From positions 1-32,848 of the IMG/VR virus record IMGVR_UViG_3300030104_000163: a stretch of DNA of 32,848 nt. One strand, 5' to 3'. The translations under genes and the position numbers were made by a program. The first letter of the stretch is position 1; each line of letters starts with the position of its first letter. This document shows positions 19,205 to 32,361 of this stretch, in pieces. This DNA comes from a virus. A model generated the notes under the pieces. That model saw nothing but the letters and a program-made list of their open reading frames with translations. It ran no database searches and was not told where the DNA came from.

Positions 19205-20325
19205 TATATATCACTTTCTATGTTACTCATTACACTCGATTGTACATAAGTATCTCTCTGTGTCAAGGCATTATTTGCACTTTCGTATGTATGTTTCATG
19301 TATGGTTTCACAGAAGACACATGTGTATGCCCTGTCACTGCCATAATTTGTGGCAAAGGCACACCCTTGTCTACCATCTCTGTTACACCAGTCCTACGTA
19401 TGTCCATAAGACGTAGTTCCTCTGACAGTTTAGCCAGTCTCATTACCTTACGTCCAACCTTGGACAGTCTCTCCATAGCATACGGCTCAAACTTACCTGA
19501 CCTTGGCTTTGGGTGTGGTGCTACCCACTGTTGAAAACCAAAGTCAGCTTTCTGTTCTAGTAGCATGGCATTGAGGTTGTCACTGATAGGCAGAAACACC
19601 TGTGCTCTACGCTTGCTTTGCTCCAGAGATAGCTGTTGGTTCTTGAGGTCAAGGCAATCCCATGTAAGATTACGCATGTCTCCAAGCCTCTGACACCACT
19701 CGTATGCCATGTGTACAATCAGTCCTAAGTTACGATACTCAAAGTCACTGTAGGCTACGTCAAGAAACTTGTTGACTTCACCATGTGTCCAGACAACCTT
19801 ACGCTGATGATTTCTTTTGCGTTTGATCTTGGCAAATGGGTTCTGTTCTGCGTGTTCCATTTGTATGGCATAGTTGTACACCCTACTGGCACAGGTAGCC
19901 GTATGGTTAGCAAAGCTGACACCACGTGACACCCATTCCTCATACGCTGCCTTGGCAATCTTAGGTGTGACATCTTTGTACTTCCTACACCCCATTGTCT
20001 GATGTAATATGGTGAGGAAATATCGGTAGTCGATCTTTGTGGAATCACGTAACATATTGAAATCATTAGAAGAATAGTAAAAGTTTATCAGGTCAGTAAC
20101 CTTGCCGCTTGGCTTGATGTTCACAACCTTTGACTGTTCCTCTCTCCAATCGTCTATCTGTTTATTTAACTCCTTTGCAAGCTGTCTACTAACACGTAGA
20201 TCATTACCTAATTCTTCACGTGACACGACACCTGCATTGACAAGTTTCTGTGGTGGGTTGAAGCGATACGATGTGTCACCCGAAAGTGACACTCGTTGTT
20301 GTACAAATCTAGGCAGTGCTACCAT
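19204..20325 (-). CDS. int: Tyrosine recombinase (integrase family), His replaced by Met in the HxxR box
   Basis: A 373-residue tyrosine recombinase. Residues 75-170 look like the SAM-like core-binding domain (DLINFYYSSNDFNML, then ASRVYNYAIQMEHAEQNPF). The catalytic domain has R213 (CQRLGDM), K238, R310 (MDIRRTGVTEMVDKG), H333 (VTGHTHVSSVK) and nucleophile Y342. The usual HxxR histidine is M307. Such enzymes integrate phage DNA or resolve concatemers. It is buried in the replication operon, overlapping both neighbours by one base, with no adjacent non-coding DNA for an attachment site. Whether it integrates is therefore doubtful; the fold assignment is firm. Confidence 0.88.
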   Translation of the reverse strand: MVALPRFVQQRVSLSGDTSYRFNPPQKLVNAGVVSREELGNDLRVSRQLAKELNKQIDDWREEQSKVVNIKPSGKVTDLINFYYSSNDFNMLRDSTKIDYRYFLTILHQTMGCRKYKDVTPKIAKAAYEEWVSRGVSFANHTATCASRVYNYAIQMEHAEQNPFAKIKRKRNHQRKVVWTHGEVNKFLDVAYSDFEYRNLGLIVHMAYEWCQRLGDMRNLTWDCLDLKNQQLSLEQSKRRAQVFLPISDNLNAMLLEQKADFGFQQWVAPHPKPRSGKFEPYAMERLSKVGRKVMRLAKLSEELRLMDIRRTGVTEMVDKGVPLPQIMAVTGHTHVSSVKPYMKHTYESANNALTQRDTYVQSSVMSNIESDI

Positions 20326-24015: not shown

Positions 24016-24162
24016 TCAGTTTGTTAGTTTACGTGTTAAGCTTTTGTTCTTACGTGCAATTCTACGTAAGCGTTTGTGCTCATCACGCTTTGGTTTCTGT
24101 CCGACATCGGACACTTTCTTGGTGGCAGCAAACTTAATAAAGTTTTGCATCTCGTAACGCAT
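24016..24162 (-). CDS. Small very basic protein (48 aa) containing palindrome copy 1
   Basis: An ATG at 24162, seven bases after AAGGAG, opens 48 codons ending at 24016. The protein is basic (MRYEMQNFIKFAATKK, then VSDVGQKPKRDEHKRLRR). The codons for VSDVGQ lie on the repeated 16-bp palindrome at 24098-24113. It overlaps the 51-residue gene upstream by 29 bases in a different frame. The good ribosome-binding site and basic composition support a real gene; function unknown. Confidence 0.65.
   Translation of the reverse strand: MRYEMQNFIKFAATKKVSDVGQKPKRDEHKRLRRIARKNKSLTRKLTN
24098..24113. repeat. Palindrome TGTCCGACATCGGACA, copy 1 (inside a gene)
   Basis: Perfect 7-bp arms TGTCCGA/TCGGACA with a CA centre on the plus strand. 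It lies within the coding sequence of the 48-residue protein, where it encodes VSDVGQ. Same orientation as the other four copies (25369, 26312, 26647, 27343). Confidence 0.85.
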
Positions 24163-24289
24163 TGTACTTCTCCTTCTTACTAGGCTTGCGCTTTGTGCCT
24201 TTCTTTGGTGGCACTACCTGTGACGGTTTGCGCTGCTCAAGCAACGCCTTTGCCACTGGATTCGTTATGTACCTCTTGGTCAATTTCAT
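24134..24289 (-). CDS. Small Lys/Pro-rich protein (51 aa)
   Basis: An ATG at 24289, seven bases after AAGGAA, opens 51 codons ending in TAA at 24134-24136. The protein is very basic and Pro-containing (MKLTKRYITNPVAKALLEQR, then VVPPKKGTKRKPSKKEKYNA). It begins inside the end of the 89-residue gene (overlap 53 bases, different frame) and ends inside the start of the 48-residue gene. The composition is far from that of a random frame and the ribosome-binding site is good, so I call it a real, heavily overlapping gene of unknown function. Confidence 0.6.
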   Translation of the reverse strand: MKLTKRYITNPVAKALLEQRKPSQVVPPKKGTKRKPSKKEKYNALRDAKLY

Positions 24290-24506
24290 CTCGTATTCCT
24301 TCCAATACTTGTATTAAATGGGTCAGGGTTGAACCAAACTTTTTAATGGTCATACTGCCCCAGTCACCATCATCAGGTATAATACCTACCTCTTGCATGG
24401 CAGCTTCGCCATTGAGCCTAGAACTAGGGCAATCATAATGTTGTGCAATAGATATTTTTCTACCATTATGCCATACGTTAACGTTGTTGTATAAATCGTC
24501 CATCAT
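24237..24506 (-). CDS. Hypothetical acidic protein (89 aa)
   Basis: An 89-residue protein beginning after CGAGGTAAAGTT. It contains NVNVWHNGRKISIAQHYDCP (residues 8-27) and a helical C-terminal half (IKKFGSTLTHLIQVLEGIRD). The His/Cys/Asp-containing centre (HYDCPSSRLNGEAAM) might bind a metal, but no known motif fits. It starts four bases after the stop of the HhH-like gene. No family recognised. Confidence 0.6.
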   Translation of the reverse strand: MMDDLYNNVNVWHNGRKISIAQHYDCPSSRLNGEAAMQEVGIIPDDGDWGSMTIKKFGSTLTHLIQVLEGIRDEIDQEVHNESSGKGVA

Positions 24507-24510
24507 AACT

Positions 24511-25095
24511 TTACCTCGATATGTTATGTTGTCTGCGCCATGCTACCCAAGTGATAGCTTGCATTTGATAACCTTTGATACCTACCTTGTCAGCAGCCTT
24601 GTAGTAAGCTTCCGATATGGTGCGGTATTCCTTGACACCTACGTTATTGTTCTTGAGAACCCTACGTAGTCCGTCATGTATGTTCTTGGCATGACCGTCA
24701 ACTGTCACTACGTCCAGTCCAAGTATATTGGCAAAGAACGCTGTAGTCTTTTGACCATTCAGTTTAGCCATGATAGTTTTCTTGCGAACCATTTTTTGTT
24801 CAAGCATTTCCCAAGCCTTTAGCTTGTTCTGTGGATAGCCAGACAAGATTACATCGTCCATAGCACCACCATTGACAAAGCACTCAATTAGAATACGTGC
24901 AGACTTGATATTGACATTCCAATTCATCAAAGGGGATAGTGCAGCAACAACACCGACAACAGTGTTTACACTGATACCAAATTCCTTGGCTACCTTAGTG
25001 CTGTCACGCTTGGCAATGGCATACCATTTCATGCCATGTTGAATTTCATCAGCCGTAGCTGAACGATAAACTTTTAATATTTGTCTTACAGACAT
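24511..25095 (-). CDS. Conserved phage protein, possible helix-hairpin-helix DNA glycosylase-like fold (DUF7178-like)
   Basis: A 194-residue all-helical protein. Recognisable blocks are VVAALSPLMNWNVNIKSAR (49-67), a conserved NGQKT (113-117) followed by FFANILG, VTVDGHAKNIHDG (130-142) and AITWVAWRR (180-188). This set belongs to a family widespread in phages (I recall DUF7178). The order G-x-K-...-VD-x-H, with an invariant Lys and Asp, resembles the HhH-GPD glycosylases of base-excision repair, so a base-removing or DNA-binding role is possible. That link is inference. GGAG precedes the ATG. Confidence 0.6.
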   Translation of the reverse strand: MSVRQILKVYRSATADEIQHGMKWYAIAKRDSTKVAKEFGISVNTVVGVVAALSPLMNWNVNIKSARILIECFVNGGAMDDVILSGYPQNKLKAWEMLEQKMVRKKTIMAKLNGQKTTAFFANILGLDVVTVDGHAKNIHDGLRRVLKNNNVGVKEYRTISEAYYKAADKVGIKGYQMQAITWVAWRRQHNISR

Positions 25096-25100
25096 TACAC

Positions 25101-25349
25101 TTACTCCGCTTCTGCAACTTTTGTAAACAAGTCATCCCATTCATCAGGTGTAGCACCTGATATGAGAAACTCACGTTGATTTTCATCAAAGTGTGGAAAG
25201 GCATCTTGAACCAACGTCATGTTCTCTTCCCAATGCTCAAGCTCACCTTGACGTGTAGGCAACACCATTGAATTATGGTTGCCAGTAATTACAGATTGTT
25301 TGTGAACTCTCACAAAGCCATCATCTACATGTTCAATTTTATGGATCAT
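25101..25349 (-). CDS. Small acidic protein with GATPDEWDDLF motif
   Basis: An 82-residue acidic protein. The N-terminal half looks beta-rich (VRVHKQSVITGNHNSMVLPT), followed by LEHWEENMTLVQDAFPHFDE and the signature REFLISGATPDEWDDLF. I recall this signature (REFL-x-T-G-x-T-P-E-E-W-D) from a small conserved protein of ssDNA microviruses (gokushoviruses) and of many tailed phages; its function is not settled. Upstream lies one of the two identical 36-bp leaders with a palindrome, and the start has GGAG from that leader. Its translation may therefore be controlled like that of the 79-residue gene at 26052. Confidence 0.7.
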   Translation of the reverse strand: MIHKIEHVDDGFVRVHKQSVITGNHNSMVLPTRQGELEHWEENMTLVQDAFPHFDENQREFLISGATPDEWDDLFTKVAEAE

Positions 25350-25351
25350 AA

Positions 25352-25387
25352 TAATCTCCGATTAAAGTGTCCGACATCGGACTGTTT
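25352..25387 (-). repeat. 36-bp leader repeat, copy A, with palindrome copy 2 (25369-25382)
   Basis: Identical over 36 bases to 26295-26330. It contains the palindrome GTCCGACATCGGAC and, on the minus strand, the ribosome-binding CGGAG just before the ATG at 25349. In RNA the palindrome could form a 5-bp stem with an AUGU loop, 9-10 bases ahead of the ribosome-binding site. Confidence 0.85.
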
Positions 25388-25403
25388 CAGTTAAATGTGG
25401 GGA

Positions 25404-25613
25404 TTACTTTCCCCACATATCTTTTGCAATTTTGTCAGGCGATTTGTTTGAATTTTTAATTAACTTATCAGAAATTTGCAACAAATCATCTTCGTCTTTT
25501 ACATAGATACCTACATAACCAGTATCTTGATGATACACTCCGTAGCAATCATCACCAAAATCTGCTACAATGTTAGCATTGCTAAAGTTTATCGCAGTTA
25601 ATCCAAGTAACAT
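25404..25613 (-). CDS. Small acidic protein (69 aa)
   Basis: The ATG at 25613 (MLLGLTAINFSNANIVADFG) has GAGG six bases upstream and is preferred over an ATG four codons earlier that has none. The protein has a likely beta-rich N-terminal half (YGVYHQDTGYVGIYVKDEDD) and a helical Lys-rich end (ISDKLIKNSNKSPDKIAKDM). The first 15 residues are mildly hydrophobic but too short and polar for a clear signal. It lies directly downstream of the promoter-like inverted repeat at 25643-25683. No family recognised. Confidence 0.65.
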   Translation of the reverse strand: MLLGLTAINFSNANIVADFGDDCYGVYHQDTGYVGIYVKDEDDLLQISDKLIKNSNKSPDKIAKDMWGK

Positions 25614-25642
25614 TTTAAACCTCATTGTTAATGTCTACATAT

Positions 25643-25683
25643 GTTATATAACACTTTCATATATATTTCAAGTGTTATATAAC
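25643..25683 (-). promoter_or_regulatory. Near-consensus promoter inside a perfect 14-bp inverted repeat
   Basis: The arms GTTATATAACACTT (25643-25656) and AAGTGTTATATAAC (25670-25683) are perfectly inverted, separated by 13 bases. Read on the minus strand they contain TTGAAA (25671-25666), a 17-base spacer and TATAAC (25648-25643), each one mismatch from the sigma-70 consensus. Each arm also includes the 10-bp palindrome GTTATATAAC. Transcription would enter the gene at 25613. The dyad covering both promoter boxes suggests a repressor site; no T-run follows, so a terminator is unlikely. Confidence 0.65.
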
Positions 25684-25702
25684 TATGAGACTATTAAAGT
25701 TG

Positions 25703-25888
25703 CTATTCAACAACATACCAACCAGTGTCCTTGACACTGTTACAGCCATGCCGTTTCATCTTTTCTTGAAACAGCTTGCGCTGCAATTCTTCCTTACGAC
25801 TAATAGGTCTGGTCGCTTCCTCTAGTCTTTCGACTAGACGCATGGATGACGTATTATAACGTCTATTATTTACCTGTATATATTTCAT
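25703..25888 (-). CDS. Small basic protein (61 aa)
   Basis: A 61-residue basic protein: MKYIQVNNRRYNTSSMRLVE, then RLEEATRPISRKEELQRKLF and HGCNSVKDTGWYVVE. Mostly helical and Arg/Lys-rich, with a short strand-like end. GGAAGGG precedes the ATG, which follows the stop of the membrane-protein gene closely. It is the last gene before the promoter-like inverted repeat. No family recognised. Confidence 0.6.
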   Translation of the reverse strand: MKYIQVNNRRYNTSSMRLVERLEEATRPISRKEELQRKLFQEKMKRHGCNSVKDTGWYVVE

Positions 25889-25889
25889 T

Positions 25890-26048
25890 TTACCCTTCCA
25901 AATACATTACTACGTAATTGATTGCCATAACAATTACAAATATGATTGCCATATTTGGTATGGCTTGCCAACTTTCAAACATAAATGACATTAGCACTAT
26001 AGTTATTAGTGCCATACCATTTATCATAAACAATAAAAATGCTAACAT
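25890..26048 (-). CDS. Two-pass membrane mini-protein (52 aa)
   Basis: An ATG at 26048, five bases after a perfect GGAGGT, opens 52 codons ending in TAA at 25890-25892. The protein is almost wholly hydrophobic: segment one about residues 2-24 (LAFLLFMINGMALITIVLMS), a short polar turn (ESWQAIPN), segment two about residues 33-50 (MAIIFVIVMAINYVVMYL). A two-helix hairpin with short ends is a typical small holin or membrane-modifying layout. It is in the early operon, 4 kb upstream of the hydrolase gene. Function inferred from topology only. Confidence 0.75.
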   Translation of the reverse strand: MLAFLLFMINGMALITIVLMSFMFESWQAIPNMAIIFVIVMAINYVVMYLEG

Positions 26049-26051
26049 TTT

Positions 26052-26291
26052 TTACCTCCAGTAAGCTGAGTATTCAGCTTGGTCAATCCAATGCAAAGCT
26101 TGCTCTTCGTCCTCTGCCCCAACTGACATACATATGTCAATCTCTCTCTGACGTTCCTCACGGTCTTCCTTGATCTGACGATCAAGCTCAGACTGTAAGT
26201 GATCCATCCATTCAGCATTAGGCTGAATATTGCGTGGCCTAAAGCCATACACATCTTTGTATAAATCACTGAAATAAGAATAATCTTGCAT
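26052..26291 (-). CDS. Small conserved phage protein with YGFRPR motif
   Basis: A 79-residue protein. SDLYKDVYGFRPRNIQPNAE (residues 8-27) is a motif I recall from small proteins common in many phages (D-x-Y-K-x-x-x-G-x-R-P-R), of unknown function. The rest is a charged helix (LDRQIKEDREERQREIDICM) and a short aromatic tail. Its start uses the GGAG of the 36-bp leader repeat copy B, so it may be co-regulated with the gene at 25101. It ends three bases before the membrane mini-protein's start. Confidence 0.7.
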   Translation of the reverse strand: MQDYSYFSDLYKDVYGFRPRNIQPNAEWMDHLQSELDRQIKEDREERQREIDICMSVGAEDEEQALHWIDQAEYSAYWR

Positions 26292-26294
26292 TGT

Positions 26295-26330
26295 TAATCT
26301 CCGATTAAAGTGTCCGACATCGGACTGTTT
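26295..26330 (-). repeat. 36-bp leader repeat, copy B, with palindrome copy 3 (26312-26325)
   Basis: Identical over 36 bases to 25352-25387. It begins at the stop codon of the upstream 43-residue gene and carries the palindrome GTCCGACATCGGAC followed (minus strand) by the CGGAG ribosome-binding site of the gene starting at 26291. Confidence 0.85.
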
Positions 26331-26461
26331 TACTTTAGTAAAGCTGATCTAGCTTCATCTAAACTTTTGAAGAACGAAATAGACCTTTGACCTGTAATTC
26401 TACAGGTTCTATGAACGTGCCAAAAACCATTTTGGTCTATGATAACTTTAATTGTATTCAT
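26330..26461 (-). CDS. Small protein (43 aa)
   Basis: The ATG at 26461 (MNTIKVIIDQNGFWHVHRTC) has AAGGA about nine bases upstream; an in-frame start 27 codons earlier would overlap the 205-residue gene and gives an uncharacteristic Lys/Gln-rich extension. The protein reads as a beta hairpin with aromatic and His residues followed by a helix (FFKSLDEARSALLK). This layout resembles small single-domain phage proteins that bind DNA or RNA, but no family was recognised. Its stop touches the 36-bp leader repeat. Confidence 0.6.
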   Translation of the reverse strand: MNTIKVIIDQNGFWHVHRTCRITGQRSISFFKSLDEARSALLK

Positions 26462-26492
26462 TAGATAAATCCTTTTTAAAAGTGGAAACAGC

Positions 26493-27110
26493 TTACGCTG
26501 CTTCCTTTGTTTCTGCTTCTTCAGCTTCGCTGACTGTATCAATTTCCATTAATGCTTCGGCAATGTCAAGTAAATCAATACCAGAGTATTGACAAGCTTT
26601 GATGATACTTTTCACGATATCATCTTTAGATGGTTTTGACTTAGACTGTCCGACATCGGACACTTCTTCTTTAGAAGGTTGCTCAGTGGTAGCTTCAGCT
26701 TCGCTGTTTGCCTTGGCTTCTTTAGAAGCTTTGTACATAGCTTTCTGTAAAGCAGAAAGTGAAGTGTAACCTTTCTTAGATTTCTTAATGAAATCTCGGC
26801 AATCAACTTCGTTTTCAACGAACCACAAAGCTTCAGATCGTCTTCTACGATCTATCTTGTCAACATGATATGTTGCCAAAGTTTGTCTACTGATTTGACC
26901 ACTATCTAGTGGTGACTGAGCTTTCAACTCTTGTAAGAGTTTTCCAAGCCTAGTATCAAAGCCATCAGCTTTGGTATCTGCTGTAAACAGCTTTCTTTGT
27001 GCTGTTTGACGACTTTTCCAAATAGCATTTAGGGTTTTACCCTCTGCTTTTAGTTTATCCAAAGAAGTTCCTTCTTGAGTTGACTTGCTAACTGTAACTG
27101 ATTTTGCCAT
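26493..27110 (-). CDS. First gene of the minus operon: charged protein of unknown function, carries palindrome copy 4
   Basis: A 205-residue protein with AAAGGAGGCCAATC before its ATG, one of the best ribosome-binding sites in the window. Residues 1-120 are basic and helical (RRRRSEALWFVENEVDCRDF is the most distinctive block); residues 125-165 are low-complexity Ser/Glu/Lys; 165-205 are helical and acidic (IIKACQYSGIDLLDIAEALM). The linker contains VSDVGQ encoded by the palindrome at 26647-26662. Being the first gene downstream of the non-coding hub, it should be among the earliest made; a host-takeover or regulatory protein is plausible. No family recognised. Confidence 0.65.
   Translation of the reverse strand: MAKSVTVSKSTQEGTSLDKLKAEGKTLNAIWKSRQTAQRKLFTADTKADGFDTRLGKLLQELKAQSPLDSGQISRQTLATYHVDKIDRRRRSEALWFVENEVDCRDFIKKSKKGYTSLSALQKAMYKASKEAKANSEAEATTEQPSKEEVSDVGQSKSKPSKDDIVKSIIKACQYSGIDLLDIAEALMEIDTVSEAEEAETKEAA
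26647..26662. repeat. Palindrome TGTCCGACATCGGACA, copy 4 (inside a gene)
   Basis: The 16-bp sequence is identical to copy 1 at 24098-24113, with perfect 7-bp arms and a CA centre on the plus strand. It lies in the low-complexity linker of the 205-residue protein and encodes VSDVGQ in the same frame register as copy 1, although the two proteins are otherwise unrelated. Confidence 0.85.
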
Positions 27111-27126
27111 GATTGGCCTCCTTTAT

Positions 27127-27208
27127 CTATCTTCAGTTTTTATGTGAGAATATATATCTCTCACCCTAAAGTGAGATATATATTATCACTAAAAACGTAA
27201 GAAGATAG
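27127..27208. repeat. Long imperfect hairpin upstream of the early operon
   Basis: Outer arms CTATCTTC (27127-27134) and GAAGATAG (27201-27208) are perfect. Inside, GTTTTTA, GTGA, AATATATAT and CTCAC on the left each match complements on the right, closing on the loop CCTAAA (27165-27170). Four GTGA(G)/(C)TCAC units occur in it. It ends about 16 bases before the ATG at 27110, so it would lie in the 5' leader of the operon or over its promoter. Confidence 0.7.
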
Positions 27209-27342
27209 TATAAGTTGAATTTGCTGCTTTCCGTGATCCTCTGCGCTTGCCGTTTCACAGGTGACTGCAAAAATATATTTCATATATATTTTGAAGTTGG
27301 TGCGCTAAACTTGCGAGGCTCTGTTCTCTGTTTGTTCCAAGA

Positions 27343-27356
27343 GTCCGACATCGGAC
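27343..27356. repeat. Palindrome GTCCGACATCGGAC, copy 5 (non-coding)
   Basis: The 14-bp core has perfect 6-bp arms and the same CA centre and orientation as the other four copies. It lies 233 bases upstream of the first minus-operon gene, in the non-coding hub. Confidence 0.85.
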
Positions 27357-27434
27357 AGTTACCCCAAGGGGGTAGGGTAAAAATGAGCATCGACTTTGCA
27401 ACACATCCTTGATGTGATAGGTCAGCCCTTCTTA

Positions 27435-27517
27435 CACTATTTATAGTGGCAACTGATTGCATAACAGTTGTTGTAGACAACTAAGTCACTGAATACAAAT
27501 ACATTCCTCTGGGAATG
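27435..27517. repeat. Cluster of short dyads in the control region
   Basis: CACTAT-TT-ATAGTG (27435-27448), CAACTG-N9-CAGTTG (27450-27470) and CATTCC-TCTG-GGAATG (27502-27517, with a second GGAATGT at 27520) lie within 83 bases; CACATC-CTT-GATGTG (27402-27416) lies just upstream. Each has perfect 6-bp arms. They could be protein-binding sites or RNA hairpins; individually such short dyads can occur by chance. Confidence 0.45.
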
Positions 27518-27594
27518 GTGGAATGTGTCAGATGATTCCTAGTCACCAACGCCATGACATTGCATAATGCACGCAATTCCGCAGTGAATGAGCA

Positions 27595-27619
27595 GGGTAG
27601 GCAGGGGGCAGTGGGGGGG
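27595..27619 (+). other. Possible G-quadruplex tract
   Basis: Three G-runs of 3, 5 and 7 bases fall within 25 bases (27595-27597, 27604-27608, 27613-27619). The 7-G run can supply two tracts, giving four GGG tracts with loops of at most six bases. Such a tract stands out in an AT-rich genome and lies in the non-coding hub. Confidence 0.5.
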
Positions 27620-27760
27620 TGTGCGTATATATGTATGTATATCTACACAGATCAGGAAAAATGGATGTTAACCACATTACATATATACTGGTTTACACAG
27701 AACATGGTTCTGAAAATAGTGGAAATAGTAGAACAATATTTTTATTTTTACTATTAGGGG

Positions 27761-27788
27761 TTGACACGAGCCGTGAAATGTGTAAAAC
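27761..27788 (+). promoter_or_regulatory. Possible plus-strand promoter (TTGACA)
   Basis: A perfect TTGACA (27761-27766) is followed after 16 bases by TAAAAC (27783-27788, two mismatches to TATAAT), pointing to the plus-strand genes starting at 27945. The -10 box is mediocre, so this is a tentative call. Confidence 0.35.
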
Positions 27789-27807
27789 TATATATAACTA
27801 AACTAAG

Positions 27808-27899
27808 ACTCACTTAAAGTGATTACACTTAAATATTAAATATACTAAATATAATTATACTTAACTAAGATACACTTAAATGTTACACTATAAGTGAGT
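27808..27899. repeat. AT-rich repeat block bounded by 9-bp inverted repeats
   Basis: ACTCACTTA (27808-27816) and TAAGTGAGT (27891-27899) are perfect inverted repeats. Between them lie two copies of TACACTTAAAT (27824-27834 and 27871-27881), a related TATACTTAACT (27856-27866) and TCACTT-A-AAGTGA (27810-27822). The interior is almost entirely A/T, as in iteron-type origins or multi-site operators. Confidence 0.6.
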
Positions 27900-27907
27900 G
27901 GTATAAT
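27899..27907 (+). promoter_or_regulatory. Extended -10 promoter element (TGG-TATAAT)
   Basis: A perfect TATAAT (27902-27907) preceded by TGG forms an extended -10 element, about 38 bases before the ATG at 27945. No good -35 box lies 17 bases upstream, which extended -10 promoters can tolerate. The right arm of the inverted repeat (TAAGTGAGT) touches it, suggesting an operator. Confidence 0.5.
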
Positions 27908-27944
27908 AAATATTTTTGTATTAAAATACAGAAAGTTCTTGACA

Positions 27945-28157
27945 ATGGCTGAAAAATCAGTAAAACTATATACAGACAATGTTCTTGAAGAGTTTTACAA
28001 ACACGTACTTGACGGTAACATTGAAGATTTACATATTCCCCACAGTGATGTATTCTATGTACGTGAAGCTGTACAGGCTCACTACGGTAGACCATTTACT
28101 TTAGAGCATGTAGAGTGGGCAATGCGTATGGAAGGTTGGACAGATGGCAATCCCTGA
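27945..28157 (+). CDS. Small acidic protein, first plus-strand gene after the control region
   Basis: A 70-residue protein from the ATG at 27945 (MAEKSVKLYTDNVLEEFYKH). A GTG 17 codons earlier in the same frame would start inside the promoter region and is rejected. It is helical, with VLDGNIEDLHIPHSDVFYVREAVQAHYG and FTLEHVEWAMRMEGW, a layout resembling a winged or helix-turn-helix mini-domain, but no firm family. The ribosome-binding site is weak. It overlaps the next gene by 14 bases. As the first gene of its unit it may be regulatory; this is inference. Confidence 0.65.
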   Translation: MAEKSVKLYTDNVLEEFYKHVLDGNIEDLHIPHSDVFYVREAVQAHYGRPFTLEHVEWAMRMEGWTDGNP

Positions 28158-31782: not shown

Positions 31783-32361
31783 ATGTCACTATCCACAAAT
31801 GCTGCTAAATTAGCAAGACTATTAAAACAAAAAGATAAAATTATGAATGAGATTAAAATGTTAAGAAAACAGGAAGGGGCAAAAGTATCGCCAAATAAAC
31901 CTGAACCAACTACATTTGACTCTGAAAGAAAAAGAATAATGCGTACTACTAATACTGAGGCAGGGCAAAATAGAGCATTAATGAACTTAGCTAAAAAATA
32001 TAGGCGTCCTATTAAGATAGCAGGTAAAATGTTTTATCCACCTAAAGACATAGGTCCACCTACAAGGGGCGGTAGAACACCAATGAAAAAAGGTGGTACA
32101 CCTAAAAAGAAAAAAGGTATGGCACGTGGTGGTATGAAAAAGAAAGGCATGGCACGTGGTGGTATGAAAAAGAAAGGCATGGCACGTGGTGGTTTAAAAC
32201 CTGCGCCAAATAAAGGTGCAGCATCTTTACCTAAAGGTGTACGCAATAAAATGGGCTTTATGAAAAAAGGTGGCATGACTAAGAAAAAAGGTATGGCACG
32301 TGGTGGCATGAAGAAAAAAGGCTACGCTAAAGGTGGAGCAGCTAAGAAATCTAAAAAATAA
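31783..32361 (+). CDS. Lys-rich protein with tandem KKKGMARGGM repeats
   Basis: A 192-residue protein. Residues 1-85 have a helical start (AKLARLLKQKDKIMNEIKML) and a basic globular-looking segment (RRPIKIAGKMFYPP). Residues 95-192 are repeats of GG motifs: MKKGG, then GMARGGMKKK three times (112-137), MKKGGMTKKK, and KGMARGGMKKKGYAKGG. GGAG lies nine bases before the ATG. Repeats of this type are known from ocean phages without function. It closes the Lys-rich cluster and precedes a probable virion gene, suggesting presence in the particle. Confidence 0.7.
   Translation: MSLSTNAAKLARLLKQKDKIMNEIKMLRKQEGAKVSPNKPEPTTFDSERKRIMRTTNTEAGQNRALMNLAKKYRRPIKIAGKMFYPPKDIGPPTRGGRTPMKKGGTPKKKKGMARGGMKKKGMARGGMKKKGMARGGLKPAPNKGAASLPKGVRNKMGFMKKGGMTKKKGMARGGMKKKGYAKGGAAKKSKK
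32119..32193 (+). repeat. 30-bp tandem repeat inside the Lys-rich gene
   Basis: Two and a half copies of a 30-base unit (32119-32148, 32149-32178, 32179-32193) encode MARGGMKKKG units; a diverged copy lies at 32293-32322. Near-identity at DNA level implies recent duplication or active gain and loss of units. Confidence 0.8.

Follow-up and report, generated by a model that had tools for sequence, protein, structure and literature searches.

The stretch of DNA analysed here (the window) is a whole virus record of 32,848 bases (IMG/VR record IMGVR_UViG_3300030104_000163). DNA comparison places it among the HMO-2011-type marine podophages, with the Roseobacter phages CRP-1 and CRP-345 as its closest relatives. 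These phages are reported to be a dominant, widely distributed marine group (PMC9038755). Read leftward, the genes run from one encoding a protein of 205 amino acids (aa; 26493..27110, minus strand) through small early genes to integrase, primase, helicase and polymerase, an order that matches annotated relatives. Five copies of a 14-bp palindrome lie in this early region, and the 205-aa protein, whose gene opens the leftward early operon, is proposed here as the regulator that binds them. Its homologues include gp74 of HMO-2011, gp01 of CRP-1 and gp01 of CRP-345.

The palindrome GTCCGACATCGGAC starts at positions 24099, 25369, 26312, 26648 and 27343, always as an exact match on the plus strand with the centre CA. 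A first inspection of the letters alone (the original prediction) had listed these five copies and no other, and positions and strand were given correctly: no further exact copy exists in the window or its record. With up to three mismatches allowed, 12 matches were seen compared to a mean of 0.81 in shuffled sequence, so that the five-copy signal is beyond chance; two weak matches lie besides at 19452 and 13473. Three copies are non-coding and two are genic, again as first described. The upstream site (27343..27356, minus strand, GTCCGATGTCGGAC on the transcript strand) is situated in the gap between divergent operons, 246 bp ahead of the point where the 205-aa gene starts. The second site (26648..26661, minus strand) lies at +449 within the 205-aa gene, where it codes for S-D-V-G in a low-confidence linker between two helical parts of the protein. 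Two intergenic sites on the minus strand directly precede the ribosome-binding sites (RBS) of genes for a 79-aa protein (site 26312..26325, gene 26052-26291) and an 82-aa protein (site 25369..25382, gene 25101-25349), and both are part of one shared module of 41 nucleotides (nt) with 95% identity. The last site (24099..24112, minus strand) falls within a small open reading frame for a basic protein of 48 aa (24016..24162, minus strand; MRYEMQNFIKFAATKKVSDVGQKPKRDEHKR...) and is read there in the same frame, V-S-D-V-G-Q, as the site in the 205-aa gene. Orthologues of this reading frame in relatives code for S-N-V-G, S-D-V-G or S-D-I-G, depending on site allele and centre.

When public virus contigs were scanned for the 14-mer, about 25 of them proved to hold between two and six copies, amid single chance matches in others, and the control pattern GTCCGATGTTGGAC gave merely single, scattered matches among the 80 contigs listed. 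Altered forms of the array carry GTCCAACGTTGGAC or GTCCAATGTTGGAC, and GTCCGACAGCGGAC in CRP-1, CRP-345 and HMO-2011. Relatives were then taken as contigs retrieved via the integrase or the 205-aa protein (99 distinct homologues of the latter); since these contigs are mutually related, the raw counts given below overstate independence. The general site GTCC-RA-NN-TY-GGAC, a pattern that may overlook more diverged alleles, occurs two to nine times per phage in the early region of about 100 relatives, clustered within 3-4 kb. The HMO-2011 variant falls outside this pattern and was mapped separately. When 24 near-complete records were searched over their whole length, all of the matches listed were located in the early region or corresponded to the match in the integrase gene. 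Sufficient upstream sequence was available for 87 phages; in 84 of them a site precedes the first early gene, and 78 carry one within that gene. Other sites directly precede RBS or are found within small genes. Non-coding downstream sites mostly end 19-23 nt ahead of the next start codon, and 151 of 194 coding sites are read in the frame S-[DN]-V-G. The eight outer letters (GTCC/GGAC) are nearly fixed, with just four single-letter variants beside some 395 downstream sites, and letters 7-8 are free. Thus the conservation in relatives by which the original prediction was to be checked is present for count, place and flanking genes alike. CRP-207 and CRP-603 are without sites, and the first genes listed for these two phages bear no relation to the 205-aa family. 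No relatives were found in GTDB genomes or plasmids, and therefore no prophage context. We found no passage on such sites in the open-access text of PMC9038755 and PMC6918029, and no account of gene regulation in HMO-2011-type phages in the papers searched.

The sites also differ between phages in an ordered manner. GTCCRANNTYGGAC is palindromic, and its positions 5 and 10 vary jointly, the exceptions being the HMO-2011-like GACAGC sites and G..T hybrids. Within one phage the alleles are normally uniform at these positions, either GA..TC (G-type, as in the window) or AA..TT (A-type). The allele follows the residues at positions 119 and 123 of the 205-aa protein. At downstream sites, phages with T119 have A..T in 249 of 255 cases (3 G..C, 1 G..T), those with S119 and K123 have G..C in 89 of 93 (1 A..T, 3 G..T), and those with S119 and R123 show 20 A..T, 17 G..T and no G..C. 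T119 occurs for instance in phage L125 and in CRP-1 gp01, S119 with K123 in the window and in phage L133, and S119 with R123 in phage L276. The upstream site obeys the same code, with 48 A..T to 1 G..C for T119 and 20 G..C to 1 A..T for S119 with K123. On a tree of the 205-aa protein, built leaving out the columns of the proposed recognition helix and of the site-coding linker, the allele switched about 14 times. In eight to nine of ten supported independent pairs residue 119 shifted in the same direction, and in none in the opposite one (p about 0.004). Residue 119 accounts for 0.92 of the entropy of the allele, compared to 0.57 for the best column of any other early protein tested. Since among the genes tested only that of the 205-aa protein tracks this repeated switch, the protein very probably binds the sites. 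The original prediction had read the copies as a signal specific to the early operon that needs a trans-acting partner, and this is supported.

The same data bear on two explanations that do without this protein as binder. A host regulator could occupy the sites, the protein code being a by-product of host range or lineage, and it is true that hosts vary among phages and that several phage proteins vary among lineages. The allele switch is nevertheless repeated in close relatives, as in phage L125, whose integrase is 99% identical to that of the window while its sites are A-type, and it is tracked only by the 205-aa protein among the early proteins tested; we regard a host factor as very improbable. 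Even less credence is due to a small mobile or gene-converted repeat without any binder, an idea raised in the original prediction. The copies are identical and two of them share the 41-nt module, but beyond this module the flanks have mostly nothing in common, the sites occupy orthologous places restricted to the early region, and those with differing flanks change allele in concert, which together with the protein code led us to reject it.

A weak match in the integrase gene of the window (GTCCAACCTTGGAC, 19452-19465) corresponds to a near-invariant GTCCAAGGTTGGAC, coding for S-K-V-G, in about 50 close relatives. It was rejected as a working site because the A-type letters are kept even in G-type phages, and it may be chance or a relic. 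Four copies of GGCACGTGGTGG at 32121, 32151, 32181 and 32295 just reflect the repetitive coding sequence of a K/G/M-rich protein with KKKGMARGG repeats.

For the 205-aa protein itself, sequence and profile searches yielded no usable match in Pfam, PHROGs or PDB sequences. AlphaFold predicts a helix at residues 118-139, which is H105-125 in a domain model of residues 14-139, all-helical with a mean predicted local distance difference test score (pLDDT) of 89.8; the linker 140-159 has a pLDDT under 50. Residues 119, 123 and 126 are spaced i, i+4, i+7 and would thus share one face at the start of the predicted helix. Codons 118-139 (26694..26759, minus strand), which include S119, K123 and Y126 in the window, are accordingly our candidate for the recognition helix, proposed from the AlphaFold helix and the co-variation with the allele. 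The specificity residues fall outside an arginine-rich stretch, DRRRRSEALW, of the same protein. Foldseek searches of the models against the PDB gave best E values of 3.9 and 2.3, and VIA gave Z scores of at most 3.9. The model search matched the BFVD entry S4S2E1 (E value 2.5e-4), which is taken to be HMO-2011 gp74 as it has the same length. No known family or fold was thus recognised for the 205-aa protein.

On balance, we favour the view that the palindromes are operators of a dimeric early regulator, the 205-aa protein, which damps its own operon; this reading is drawn from sequence comparison. The protein would be expressed first in the leftward early operon, and each 14-bp site with its half-site GTCCRA would be bound by a symmetric dimer via the helix starting at residue 118. 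Base pair 5/10 would be read by residue 119 together with 123 and 126, such that T119 specifies A.T and S119 with K123 specifies G.C. A symmetric dimer is favoured because a change in one half-site goes along with a change in the other, which a dimer (or a base pair) demands. As the protein accumulates, it could fill the site upstream of its own promoter, the site in its own gene and several more over the next 3-4 kb, and early transcription would then be damped, either through a roadblock to the elongating RNA polymerase or through a loop that joins the upstream site to the in-gene site. Direct binding and the dimeric state are putative, and the ligand is probably DNA rather than RNA: the halves of the site change jointly, its two central letters are free, its outer letters do not wobble, residues 119, 123 and 126 take the positions of a classical recognition helix, and the upstream site follows the code. 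For the net effect we lean slightly towards repression of the operon; it may instead be activation or antitermination.

Promoter-like sequences of the 205-aa gene cluster at -125 to -100 in relatives, downstream of the upstream site (27343 in the window). This site lies in the variable middle of a non-coding element that separates the divergent operons, is highly conserved and is rich in hairpins (27221..27471, minus strand; 48 phages aligned in alignment A3). The element has the form ACAACTGTTATG-N-AATCAGTTGCC ... GAAACGRCAGGCGCAGAGGATC. At least two of its hairpins show paired changes, G.U pairs are very scarce, and it may represent an origin of replication or an RNA not described before; Rfam covariance models gave no gathering match in the window and no sensible weak match in 27000-28000. 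Directly ahead of the RBS of the 205-aa gene a long AT-rich hairpin (27132-27200) is conserved in form in relatives, not in sequence. Furthermore, a recurrent module around AAGTGTTATATAAC / TTTAGTGAAAGTGTT is found ahead of several site-bearing gaps, at 25640-25690 in the window and in intergenic gaps of relatives. It is possibly a terminator followed by a promoter; in HMO-2011-like phages TATACT precedes the site by about 7 nt.

All five copies in the window do have one orientation, as had been stated, but this does not hold as a strict rule: among 55 phages in which three or more centres have an orientation, the transcript strand reads TG at every centre in 30 and CA at every centre in 3, and 22 have both. 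Centres flip at orthologous places, for example in the small gene of phage L133, which codes for S-D-I-G where the window has S-D-V-G. Fixed orientation is therefore a bias and no rule, and the argument of the original prediction that it speaks against a symmetric operator is weak, since both half-sites change together. Several observations nevertheless weigh against dimeric operators. Hybrid sites within the transcript are one-sided (21 G..T, 0 A..C) and centres are far more often TG than CA, and a symmetric DNA dimer predicts neither; at the upstream position hybrids occur in both orientations (5 G..T, 2 A..C). This strand bias is accounted for only in part by codon use, by common descent of the module of site and RBS, and by kinship of the phages. 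The promoter positions, moreover, are consensus predictions, and the window itself has no TTGACA box. Finally, no solved structure matches the protein, so that a helix-turn-helix is suggested only by the predicted helix positions.

The strand bias is what an RNA ligand would explain. In this alternative, which we consider possible though rather unlikely, the transcript folds into GUCCR-ANNU-YGGAC (5-bp stem, 4-nt loop) and is bound by the 205-aa protein, either as a translational repressor directly ahead of RBS or as a nut-like antiterminator. In its fullest form, somewhat more doubtful still, one phage protein of an undescribed family would control the early programme via copies of one RNA hairpin within its own polycistronic mRNA, one of them in its own reading frame and others ahead of RBS, and the residue code would pick A-U, G-C or G.U at the loop-closing pair. 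Positions 5/10 change in pairs, the G..T hybrids of the transcribed region would form a G.U pair, TG centres are favoured downstream only, and the non-coding sites keep their distance of mostly 19-23 nt to start codons. Non-template C-to-T mutation as the cause of the bias is unsupported, since at four-fold codon positions the coding strand has more C than G, which also speaks for the hairpins. As in the boxB/nut sites of N protein, there would be a short 5-bp hairpin, an early operon whose first gene encodes the binder, and an arginine-rich stretch in it; unlike there, several copies are present and the specificity residues fall outside that stretch. Flank composition of the sites revealed no conserved boxA-like stretch. 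Also against the hairpins, many of the hybrids are in coding frame, where the codon GTT is preferred, no wobble variants of the four outer pairs were seen beside some 395 sites, and the loop centre is free, unlike in most protein-bound hairpins. Flank pairing at -1 and -2 gives no stem extension, and in HMO-2011 one of four transcribed asymmetric sites is flipped. The RNA element suggested in the original prediction retains downstream sites that can fold and a fitting strand bias, and is ranked second because the upstream site, although not part of the predicted transcript, obeys the same protein code.

A role in DNA organisation or segregation, as for ParB, Noc or KorB, would have the protein spread from the sites or bridge them so as to organise or partition phage DNA, with regulation being secondary. 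parS sites cluster around the gene of their binder (ParB/Noc), and here several palindromes, genic and intergenic, likewise lie within 3-4 kb around the gene of the putative binder. However, ParA (PF13614) and ParB_N (PF02195) were absent from the window, whose record may be a fragment, and from HMO-2011, CRP-1 and CRP-345, with positive controls recovered (PF13614 in 14 of 14), and an integrase is present. We consider this explanation improbable.

Known repressor systems share features with dimeric operators of the kind favoured here. Helix-turn-helix operators of the 434/P22/lambda type are 14-bp dyads with a fixed outer 4 bp, a partly specific next two and a free centre, and positions 2, 6 and 9 of the recognition helix set specificity. 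The 14-bp dyad layout is the same here, and residues 119/123/126 on one predicted helix are matched to base pair 5/10. Unlike those operators, which are grouped at promoters, the present sites are dispersed over 3-4 kb. The 205-aa fold, confidently predicted as all-helical, is not recognisable as a helix-turn-helix by Foldseek, which gave no match with an E value below 2. In the lac system O3 and O2 flank the promoter, one upstream and one at about +400 in the first gene. A site upstream of the predicted promoter and one at about +400 in the first gene resemble this Lac/Gal looping arrangement, in which the additional downstream sites have no counterpart.

In its working, the closest parallel to the array appears to be the stoperators found in cluster A mycobacteriophages (L5, Bxb1), which are asymmetric 13-mers following transcription and whose repressors diverge together with their sites (PMC9283540, PMC6550527). 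Common to both are many copies of a short site along transcribed genes and gaps, with a bias towards one orientation that is mixed in 22 of 55 phages here, and a phage binder (here proposed) whose specificity diverges with the sites, as for the L5 repressor and the TipsytheTRex repressor of known structure. The array is set apart by its 14-bp palindrome with co-changing halves, the cluster A site being an asymmetric 13-mer read by a monomer, and by sites in the early region only, some within coding sequence, in an operon that begins with the gene of the proposed binder. Profile and Foldseek searches detected no relation of the 205-aa protein to a solved repressor, an absent match that leaves kinship possible. 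Because the site is not asymmetric and kinship of the binders was not detected, we do not count the system as a cluster A member.

For HMO-2011-type phages, the 205-aa protein is a candidate for the first recognisable early regulator, together with its sites and a readable specificity code. This code is deduced from switches that recurred in nature, some of them between near-identical phages with different site alleles, and it predicts which phages could cross-regulate one another, as immunity groups do.

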